Below, in pieces: positions 10,758 through 13,263 of a stretch of DNA of 64,000 nucleotides. The DNA lies in the NCBI RefSeq assembly GCF_001717955.1, contig NZ_CP014168.1, positions 2,513,501-2,577,500 on the forward strand, in the 5' to 3' direction. Positions within the stretch are counted from its first letter, which is position 1. Every line of letters begins with the position of its first letter. The notes under the pieces are model-generated. The model saw nothing but the letters and a program-made list of their open reading frames with translations. It ran no database searches and had not been told where the DNA came from. The DNA comes from Sphingomonas panacis. Lineage in GTDB: Bacteria; Pseudomonadota; Alphaproteobacteria; Sphingomonadales; Sphingomonadaceae. A program made the position numbers and the translations under genes.

Positions 10758-11534
10758 ATGGCCAGCGCGCCGCAACAAGCCTCGCTTCCCTTGTTCTACA
10801 ACGCGCTCGAGCCGCTTTCGAGCGGGGCACATGCCGCGTTCAAGCTGCGCCAGATCGACAGCGCGCCGTTCCTCGTCAACCAGCATGCGATTCCCGTAAC
10901 GGTCGATGAGTTCATCCACGTCCAGCGGTCGATGCCGATCGTCTTCACCGCCGGCGACGAGCCGGTCCCGATCGCGCTGATGGGCCTGAACGAGGGCGTC
11001 AACGTCTTCATCGACGACGAGGGCAAGCTGAGCGACCCGTCGACCTACGTTCCGGCCTATGTCCGCCGCTATCCGTTCATGCTCGCCAGGCTGACCCCGG
11101 ATGCGCAGGAACTGTCGCTGTGCTTCGATTCGACCGCCGACGTGATCGGCGCGTTCGAGGAGGGTGAGCCGCTGTTCGAGGACGGCAAGCCGACCGCGAT
11201 CGTCCAGAACATCCTCCAGTTCAACGAGATGTTCGAAGAGGCGGGCGCCCGCACCGGCAATTTCATGCGCGAACTGCGCGAACTCGGCCTGCTGATGGAA
11301 GGCGAGATTTCGATCCAGCCCGAGGGCGCGCCGCAGCCGTTCGTCTATCGCGGCTTCCAGATGGTCAACGAGGAGAAGCTCAACGAGCTGCGCGGCGACC
11401 AGCTACGGAAAATCCAGAAGAACGGCATGTTGCCGCTGCTGTATGCGCACCTCTTCTCGCTGCAACTGATGCCGCAACTGTTCGACCGCCAGAACCGCGC
11501 CGGCAAGGTGCCGCTGCCCCCGCTCGCGAGCTGA
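10758..11534 (+). CDS. SapC family protein
   Basis: 258 aa. It resembles the SapC family (PF07277) over its whole length: FLVNQHAIPVTVDEFIHVQR, then a YVPAYVRRYPF motif, then a C-terminal MLPLLYAHLFSLQLMP segment. The family is common in Caulobacterales and Sphingomonadales near TonB-dependent receptors; its biochemical role is undefined. There is no signal peptide. GGAG precedes the ATG and a strong intrinsic terminator follows. A paralogue is encoded at 57003-57749. Confidence 0.88.
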   Translation: MASAPQQASLPLFYNALEPLSSGAHAAFKLRQIDSAPFLVNQHAIPVTVDEFIHVQRSMPIVFTAGDEPVPIALMGLNEGVNVFIDDEGKLSDPSTYVPAYVRRYPFMLARLTPDAQELSLCFDSTADVIGAFEEGEPLFEDGKPTAIVQNILQFNEMFEEAGARTGNFMRELRELGLLMEGEISIQPEGAPQPFVYRGFQMVNEEKLNELRGDQLRKIQKNGMLPLLYAHLFSLQLMPQLFDRQNRAGKVPLPPLAS

Positions 11535-11577
11535 GCGGGGCGGGCGCACCCCGCTCCGCTTTTCCGAGCCGGTTTAC

Positions 11578-11614
11578 AAATGGGCTTCCGCACGCGCGGG
11601 AGCCCATTTTGTTT
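11578..11614 (+). terminator. Intrinsic terminator of the SapC gene
   Basis: AAATGGGCTTCCGC and its complement form a stem with a short loop, followed by TTTTGTTT. Confidence 0.85.
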
Positions 11615-11742
11615 GGTGGGTGGTGGGCGCATCGCGCGGCACCGCATCATGATCGCGCAACCGCGGATGCGGCGTGAACATGTCACAAAAGCGTAAGATT
11701 TCCGCCGCTTGCGGTCATTCGTCGCAATGTGATTTTTTAGCC

Positions 11743-11771
11743 TTGAAGCCCCCATACCCCCTGCCTATATT
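11743..11771 (+). promoter_or_regulatory. Sigma-70 promoter of the small RNA
   Basis: -35 TTGAAG (11743-11748), 17-base spacer, -10 TATATT (11766-11771). A start about 7 bases downstream would fall at G11778, the first base of the RNA's first stem. Confidence 0.75.
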
Positions 11772-11777
11772 GCGGTT

Positions 11778-11881
11778 GCGTGGCTTCGTGTCCCCCCTTT
11801 CGCGAGGCCATGCGATACGCTTTCAGCGTATCTCCTCCCTGAACCTTGGCCACCGCGTGCTCCGCACGCGGTGGTTTTTTT
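11778..11881 (+). ncRNA. Candidate trans-acting small RNA (about 104 nt)
   Basis: No protein frame fits this interval, which is bracketed by a near-consensus promoter and an intrinsic terminator. The RNA would fold into: stem 1 (11778-11788 with 11803-11813, 11 bp with two G-U pairs) whose 14-nt loop carries six consecutive C; stem 2 (11814-11821 with 11825-11832, 8 perfect bp, loop TTC); an unpaired TCCTCCCT (11833-11840), complementary to Shine-Dalgarno sequences; and a terminator hairpin (11850-11874) followed by seven T. C-rich loops and anti-SD segments are the hallmark of alphaproteobacterial base-pairing sRNAs. The exact Rfam family was not determined. Confidence 0.72.
11850..11881 (+). 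terminator. Intrinsic terminator of the small RNA
   Basis: An 11-bp perfect stem CCACCGCGTGC / GCACGCGGTGG with a 3-base loop, followed by TTTTTTT. Confidence 0.9.
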
Positions 11882-11927
11882 GTGTCCTGGTGCGAAGCGT
11901 TCGGCAGGGTCGCGTGCGGGCAGGCGG

Positions 11928-12779
11928 CTATTCCGCCGCGATGGCGCTCGGTCTGGGCAGCGCTTCGTCGGCGACCGCGGCGATGATCCGGCGCAGCAGC
12001 GCGGCGGTCGCGATCAGTCCGTCGCCGGGCTGGTCGAGCGCGGTGTCGAGATACAATGCGCGATCGAACTCCAGTTGCACCGCGAAGATGTGCCGTGCCG
12101 GGTCGGCGTGTGTGTCGATGATGTGTCCGCCCGCATAGGGCACGTTGAGCGCGACCGGCACGCCGGCGGCCTGGGCCTCGGCCTCGATCCGCGCGACCAT
12201 GCGGGAGGGCGCGGCGCGGCCGAAGCGGTCGCCGATCACCAGCCGCGCCTGCCCGCCGCCAAGCGACGGCATCGAATGCACGTCGAGCAGCACCGCCACG
12301 CCGAAACGCGCCCGTGCGGCCTCCAGCAGCCCGCCCAGCGCGGCGTGATAGGGCCGGTAATCCTGAACGATCCGCGCGGTGACTTCCTGGCCATCGAGCT
12401 TGCGCCGCCAGATCTCGCCGGTGCTGGCGGTGCGGCGCGGGATCAGCCCGAGCCCGCCGCGCAGCTTCGCGGTCGCAACCGGCAGCGATTTGGCGGAGAC
12501 GCCCGTGTCGATCGCGGGATCGCGCTCCTGCTCGCTGCGGTTGAGGTCGATCCAGGCGCGCGCGCGGCGCTGGACGATCATCGTCTTGTCGTTGCGCGCC
12601 GCCAGTGCGAGCGCGTCGGCGTGGCGATCCTCGAGCCCGACGAGCGTTTCCGGCGGGACTCGCAGAGCGGCCCGCATCGCCAGCGGATAGTCCCGCCCCG
12701 CGTGTGGCACCGACAGCACGATCGGGCTGACCGGGGCGCCCGCGCCGTACAGATCGAAAGACGGAAGTGCCTGCGCCAT
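11928..12779 (-). CDS. N-formylglutamate amidohydrolase family protein
   Basis: 283 aa from ATG 12779. It shows the family's (PF05013) metal and substrate motifs: SVPHAGRDYP near the N-terminus, VGLEDRHAD, LLDVHSMP in the middle and GGHIIDTHAD towards the C-terminus. Family members hydrolyse N-formyl-L-glutamate to glutamate and formate at the end of histidine degradation, but no hut genes are nearby, so a different N-acyl substrate is possible. It is divergent from cpdR, a neighbourhood seen in other alphaproteobacteria. Confidence 0.85.
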   Translation of the reverse strand: MAQALPSFDLYGAGAPVSPIVLSVPHAGRDYPLAMRAALRVPPETLVGLEDRHADALALAARNDKTMIVQRRARAWIDLNRSEQERDPAIDTGVSAKSLPVATAKLRGGLGLIPRRTASTGEIWRRKLDGQEVTARIVQDYRPYHAALGGLLEAARARFGVAVLLDVHSMPSLGGGQARLVIGDRFGRAAPSRMVARIEAEAQAAGVPVALNVPYAGGHIIDTHADPARHIFAVQLEFDRALYLDTALDQPGDGLIATAALLRRIIAAVADEALPRPSAIAAE

Positions 12780-12888
12780 CAAGCGGAGCCTACGCGCGGC
12801 CACGGGCTACCGCAATCGCGGGATCGCGGCTGGAAAATGTTAAGGGCTTTGCGCATAGACGCCGATCCAAGGGCTTGGGCGAAACGCG

Positions 12889-13263
12889 ATGATACGGATC
12901 TTGTTGGCGGAGGACGATCGCGTGATGCGCGAGTACCTCACACGCGCGCTGGAGCGCTCGGGCTATGCGGTGAGTGCAGTCGATCGCGGCACGGCTGCGG
13001 TCCCGCTGCTGGAGACCGAACCTTTCGACCTGCTGCTGACCGACATCGTCATGCCCGAGATGGACGGCATCGAACTCGCACAGCGCGCCGGCGTGATCGC
13101 GCCCGATTTGCGCGTGATGTTCATCACCGGCTTCGCGGCGGTCACGCTCAAGGCCGGAAACGCAGTGCCGCAGGCGCGCGTGCTCTCCAAACCTTTCCAC
13201 CTGCGCGACCTCGTGCTGGAGGTGGACCGCATGTTCGAGATGGAGCGCGTGAGCGGCGGCTGA
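12889..13263 (+). CDS. cpdR: Single-domain response regulator CpdR
   Basis: 124 aa, one receiver domain and no output domain. Acidic pocket Glu8/Asp9/Asp10, phosphoacceptor Asp52 in LLLTDIVMPEMDG, Thr80, and Lys101 in LSKPFH. Length, the ILLAEDDRVMREYL start and the VMFITGFAAVTL segment fit CpdR, which in Caulobacter is phosphorylated through CckA-ChpT and, when unphosphorylated, primes ClpXP to degrade cell-cycle proteins. Adjacency to an N-formylglutamate amidohydrolase and tRNA-Val supports the name. The function is inferred from the family. Confidence 0.87.
   Translation: MIRILLAEDDRVMREYLTRALERSGYAVSAVDRGTAAVPLLETEPFDLLLTDIVMPEMDGIELAQRAGVIAPDLRVMFITGFAAVTLKAGNAVPQARVLSKPFHLRDLVLEVDRMFEMERVSGG

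Follow-up and report, generated by a model that had tools for sequence, protein, structure and literature searches.

Between a SapC-domain gene and a gene of the N-formylglutamate amidohydrolase family (FGase), a 64,000-nucleotide stretch of Sphingomonas panacis DNA, hereafter the window, contains an interval in which an initial annotation placed a base-pairing small RNA with a C-rich loop and an anti-Shine-Dalgarno segment. The locus raises the question of what kind of RNA this would be, and whether one or both of its C-rich segments would select mRNAs. On our reading, the window RNA is probably an FGase-linked alpha-r8 (MmgR/SisA-type) trans-acting sRNA that would repress through its unpaired UCUCCUCCCU, with the loop as a proposed second seed. 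The annotated proposal is borne out at the level of sequence by a match to RF00519, by covarying stems, and by the conservation of the two segments, which exceeds that of any other part of the molecule.

Layout and family of the window RNA

A scan of both strands of 11535-11930 found TTGAAG-17-TATATT as the sole promoter-like site (shuffled sequences gave a mean of 0.2), the same site that had been annotated; judged by its sequence, it is a sigma-70-like promoter. The predicted RNA runs from 11778 to 11881 on the plus strand (104 nt), and the first stem begins at 11778, in agreement with the start that had been placed at that stem's first base. Three stable hairpins are predicted within it. 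The region 11775-11885 folds at -57.8 kcal/mol, whereas its shuffled versions average -30.77 (sd 3.04, z -8.89), approximately 27 kcal/mol higher, and 0 of 200 shuffles were as good. The 8-bp second hairpin is as first described. The annotated 5′ hairpin with its C-rich loop and the terminator with its seven T also stand, while both stems, each given as 11 bp, are longer (Table 1).

Table 1. Positions of the elements of the sRNA locus and of its neighbors in the window.
Feature	Position	Strand	Basis
SapC-domain gene, upstream neighbor of the sRNA interval	10758..11534	+	
Terminator-like hairpin, 14 bp, 3′ of the SapC-domain gene; ordinary	11578..11609	+	
ORF of 154 aa, overlapping the sRNA	11674..12138	+	no Pfam match
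Promoter: TTGAAG (11743-11748), 17 nt, TATATT (11766-11771)	11743..11771	+	promoter scan
5′ hairpin, 13 bp, exposed loop UCCCCCCUUU at 11791-11800	11778..11813	+	covariation, loop identity
Second hairpin, 8 bp; corresponds to the first RF00519 hairpin	11814..11832	+	covariation, RF00519 match at 11810-11888
Unpaired linker UCCUCCCUGAACCUUG with anti-Shine-Dalgarno seed; UCCUCCCU at 11833-11840	11833..11848	+	identity
Intrinsic terminator, stem 12-13 bp, then seven T (11875-11881)	11848..11881	+	scan and covariation
FGase gene, convergent to the sRNA	11928..12803	-	PF05013, 197.6 bits
Response regulator, CpdR, divergent from the FGase gene	12889..13263	+	NCBIfam, 193.2 bits (cut-off 180)

Whether the RNA belonged to a known Rfam family or was new had been left undecided. 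A cmscan search assigned it to RF00519 (suhB/MmgR, alpha-r8) over the whole model (1-77), with 42.3 bits against a gathering cut-off of 41. By standard search, the window RNA is thus a member of the known alpha-r8 family and not a new family, although the pass is narrow and independent support therefore matters. The model omits the 5′ hairpin. The 10-mer UCUCCUCCCU differs from the family's UUUCCUCCCU by one base, and the family's rho-independent terminator is present, as is its unpaired 10-mer after a weak hairpin, except that the preceding hairpin is here a firm 8 bp. Apart from RF00519, the 11 Rfam matches listed (E up to 10) all fell under their cut-offs; RF02344 (alpha-r14/NfeR1) reached 26 bits against a cut-off of 58.8. 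The AbcR model, RF02345, was silent everywhere it was run, with no match in the window's own genome, in 58 class genomes, or in 14 control genomes, and its silence on the window RNA therefore carries no weight. The neighbors here are the SapC-domain and FGase genes and not lsrB, beside which AbcR lies in S. meliloti according to the accessible part of one report (PMC7143759). For the Zymomonas RNAs, the accessible part of PMC7064620 gives no link to the window RNA.

The surroundings of the RNA are those of its family. The available text of PMC12559287 places an alpha-r8 copy next to an FGase gene in most species and gives it a terminator and the 10-mer UUUCCUCCCU; in the window the FGase gene ends, in convergent orientation, 46 nt from the sRNA terminator. 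A pattern scan for loop and core returned at least 120 named records. Among the 120 listed, an FGase gene lay downstream within 3 kb in 105, convergent in every case and at a median of 64 nt from the pattern end; of the other 15, 10 offered under 2 kb of sequence downstream and 5 offered 2.4-5.5 kb. RF00519 was present in 60/61 genomes of the genus sample, 110/118 of the order sample, and 52/96 of the class sample. The sRNA-FGase-cpdR order may be a wider conserved block.

The window's own genome holds four alpha-r8 copies. The other three (L001, L002, and L003) score 51.4-54.8 bits, above the window copy, and belong to another subtype with the core GCAUCCUCUCCUAAAACUUU; neither of the two FGase matches in the genome is closer than 30 kb to any of them. 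This second subtype, which scores better against RF00519 than the FGase-linked copy does, is itself strongly conserved in the genus (core GCCUUUCAGGCAUCCUCUCCUAAAACUUU; 32 sequences listed, L001-L003 and L005-L033). The CCUCU segment of L001 and of L002 is predicted to be base-paired as part of a long hairpin.

Covariation of the helices and conservation of the C-rich segments

Related loci were collected from 61 genus genomes, of which 57 had a close FGase match and were read on its 3′ side, and from five genomes of an order search, giving 62 loci including the window. Two genus genomes had no FGase match (G007, G019), two had only a distant one (G015, G040), and G055 had two identical places, of which a single one was retained. 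Loci were picked by the string TCCTCCCTG[AG]AC. The core occurs in 58 of the 62 FGase-linked loci; the four others (L052, L058, L062, and L077) were left out of the alignment, and a model built from the 58 sequences found no match in them. That model did match 21 of 23 FGase loci in other genera of the same taxonomic family. The promoter recurs as well: at all 58 loci the best-scoring -35 hexamer begins with TTG, the spacer is 16-18 nt, and 60-65 nt separate the end of the pair from the UCCUCCC core, a result biased towards consensus since the hexamer pair scoring best near consensus was taken at each locus.

All three helices covary among the 58 FGase-linked sequences, which were aligned with MAFFT and not fitted to the structure. 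Overall, 96.9% of cells are paired and 22 of 33 pairs show changes on both sides. The cells with such changes number 185, against 49.6 in shuffles, a control inflated by the relatedness of the rows, and at most 27 with the partners slid. For the 5′ helix alone, both-side changes occur in 9/13 pairs (reached by 8/500 shuffles) and in 73 cells (0/500), and 93.9% of cells are paired compared to at most 51.9% in slid versions. In both tests the structure came from one of the rows and is therefore favored over slid versions, above all on cells paired. The second hairpin has both-side changes in 6/8 pairs, with 98.7% of cells paired, and the terminator has them in 7/12 pairs. Loss of the stems while the primary sequence drifted would have spoken against the annotated RNA; the stems are instead kept by compensatory changes.

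The most conserved parts of the RNA are its two C-rich segments. Mean identity among the 58 sequences is 98.8% in the loop (10 columns) and 99.2% in the linker (16 columns, 15 of them invariant), compared to 80.8, 85.7, and 86.3% in the stems. The linker's invariance is partly a product of selection, because a string within it had served to choose the loci; the loop's figure is unaffected. The loop reads UCCCCCCUUU in 44 of the 58 sequences and is a near variant in the remaining 14.

Outside the genus, the C-rich loop is kept in genera of the same taxonomic family whose stems differ. In a test using one minimum-energy fold per locus, CCCC was found in the 5′ loop of 58/58 genus loci and of 14/18 loci from other genera of that taxonomic family, compared to 2/19 and 3/25 in the order sample outside it and 1/28 in the class sample; the core went unrecognized in 5/23 loci of the same taxonomic family and in 1/20, 5/30, and 1/29 of the others. 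Three further loci of that taxonomic family (L134, L140, and L148) have a loop with CCCUC, and in a fourth (L131) the loop, read by eye outside the scripted segment, contains CUCCCCUCAUG. Among the folds listed for alpha-r8 loci of other families, most also have a predicted hairpin at this position, often with a short loop that is not C-rich. From these counts and predicted folds, it seems that the 5′ hairpin is general and the C-rich loop is special to the window's taxonomic family and a few neighbors. In one family of the order sample, f8 (L091-L095, L097-L102, L104, L108, L111, and L119), the 5′ hairpin end differs and has a conserved UUCUUGGUGUAGGA around the loop, as though a different special loop had arisen there. 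A C-rich loop in alpha-r8 RNAs appeared nowhere among the titles and abstract openings surveyed, a survey outside which the main comparative treatment lies and beyond which such a loop may already be described.

Possible roles of the 5′ loop

By analogy with characterized relatives, the approximately 104-nt RNA would work with Hfq, and its unpaired UCUCCUCCCU would pair with ribosome-binding sites and so repress a set of mRNAs; we have good confidence that the linker would use this known mechanism. The window's own genome encodes Hfq, as two full Hfq domains in tandem within one 199-aa open frame (G000:C1:3383945-3384376 (-); L298 and L299). The double-domain Hfq may matter for sRNA handling in this genome. 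The idea that the exposed C-rich 5′ loop is a second seed pairing with G-rich leaders of the AAAGGGGG kind, which would make the RNA a two-seed repressor, is in our judgment about evenly balanced between true and false.

Candidate targets of the loop are a weak lead, resting on sequence matches uncorrected for the kinship of the genomes. AAAGGGGG lies 2-14 nt before an ATG at 12 sites of the window's own genome, compared to one for the reversed pattern, and 3-12 nt before an ATG at 183 sites in 21 genus genomes, compared to 54 (summed table rows); this enrichment proves nothing, because a reversed pattern is an unfair control for a Shine-Dalgarno-like motif. An ATG frame of 80 aa or more follows seven of the 12 sites. 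Five of these frames were scanned, giving a dicarboxylate symporter family protein (L350), IHF alpha (L352), a TonB receptor plug (L354), an amidohydrolase (L357), and one frame without a Pfam match (L358). Among the matches listed (at most 50 loci), an exact AAAGGGGG directly precedes the start codon of a frame for phosphoribosylglycinamide synthetase in 3 of the 21 genus genomes (L369, L390, and L391). It also precedes an amidase frame in two genomes (L392, L393), a pair of similar 369-aa frames in two (L395, an MlaE permease, and L396), and a 132-aa frame, again in two (L373, L399). In so far as the frames at the 12 sites of the window's own genome have been identified, none is the synthetase gene, and this candidate is thus not common to that genome.

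The conservation of the loop could be structural. An ordinary single-seed alpha-r8 sRNA, in which only UCUCCUCCCU pairs with mRNAs while the 5′ hairpin protects the 5′ end and retains its loop for the sake of structure or processing, is a serious alternative that we nevertheless consider rather doubtful. It agrees with the pairing through the 10-mer reported for SisA (PMC12559287, available text) and with the hairpin with a short, non-C-rich loop that is predicted at this position in most folds for alpha-r8 loci of other families, but a purely structural loop need not hold ten bases at 98.8% identity across 58 sequences while most stem pairs change. It is unlikely that the loop is a docking site for a protein or for another RNA, such as a sponge, and not a selector of mRNAs. 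In Caulobacter the G/A-rich RNA CrfA binds the C-rich 10-mer of SisA-D, according to the part of PMC12559287 available, and sponge control therefore exists in the alpha-r8 family. Pairing of the loop with sibling RNAs was considered and rejected: L001 is the single sibling with a 5′ strand able to pair well, but the 32 sibling-type sequences do not conserve its G-run. That the window RNA is part of a leader, 3′ UTR, or coding region is barely credible, since, despite the overlapping 154-aa ORF and an FGase gene end 46 nt away, the RNA has its own promoter and terminator, the FGase gene is on the opposite strand, the next plus-strand gene (CpdR-like, 12889) lies about 1 kb past the terminator, and the ORF, without a Pfam match, covers a region of single-base gaps and compensatory changes in the alignment of related loci, in keeping with the annotated view that no protein gene explains the interval.

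We return to the loop as a proposed second seed. Target predictions for alpha-r8 RNAs rest on the 10-mer, and if the loop is a seed, part of many sphingomonad regulons has been overlooked, the RF00519 model omits a functional portion of the RNA, and the locus would offer an example, open to tracing, of how a hairpin with a structural role came to pair with targets, in parallel to AbcR. If the loop is only structural, this is an ordinary alpha-r8 RNA. In its additional and strongly conserved C-rich loop, the Sphingomonas version of alpha-r8 has what may be a second means of gripping targets. A near-invariant C-rich 5′ loop acting as a second seed would be new relative to the literature surveyed, and may already have been described elsewhere.

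Comparison with known sRNAs

The window RNA combines the core of RF00519 with an additional CCCC-rich 5′ loop. In Sinorhizobium meliloti, the alpha-r8 RNA MmgR is a 77-nt, Hfq-dependent RNA that limits PHB storage granules and for which the accessible part of the source gives no known direct target (PMC7143759). It has the core seed, the terminator, and the family match in common with the window RNA, which in contrast is predicted to be 104 nt long, has a C-rich loop on a longer 5′ hairpin that the Rfam model does not cover, and differs by one base in the 10-mer. In Caulobacter crescentus, SisA-D are four genomic alpha-r8 copies, one of them beside FGase, with an anti-SD seed (PMC12559287, in part), an arrangement repeated in the window's genome. 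SisA represses a reporter through its 10-mer, and one point mutation abolishes this effect; the portion of that report at hand describes pairing through the 10-mer only and does not mention a C-rich 5′ loop (PMC12559287). Among sphingomonads, SuhB of Sphingopyxis granuli TFA bears the same Rfam name as the window RNA and represses translation of thnR in an Hfq-dependent manner, as far as the accessible text goes (PMC6563040). At 61 nt (PMC6563040, same text), compared to 104 nt predicted here, it is too short to contain the 5′ hairpin, and by this comparison of lengths it may correspond to the other subtype, that of L001-L003.

The closest parallel for two seeds comes from another family. AbcR1 and AbcR2 of S. 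meliloti (alpha-r15) carry CUCCUCCC in the loop of the 5′ hairpin and UUCCCCUC between hairpins, two anti-SD motifs each of which acts on its own, according to the part of PMC8844928 available. Here the places of the motifs are exchanged: CUCCUCCC is in the linker of the window RNA, and although the window's own loop is UCCCCCCUUU and not UUCCCCUC, the latter occurs exactly in the 5′ loop of two loci of the same taxonomic family (L135 and L136). The RNA adjoins FGase and not lsrB. It is conceivable, and we would lean only slightly against it, that in the FGase-linked alpha-r8 RNAs of sphingomonads a plain 5′ hairpin became a second anti-Shine-Dalgarno seed, re-creating the two-seed design of AbcR independently with the motifs swapped, and yielding a two-regulon silencer beside single-seed siblings. 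The window RNA resembles AbcR in design, not in membership.
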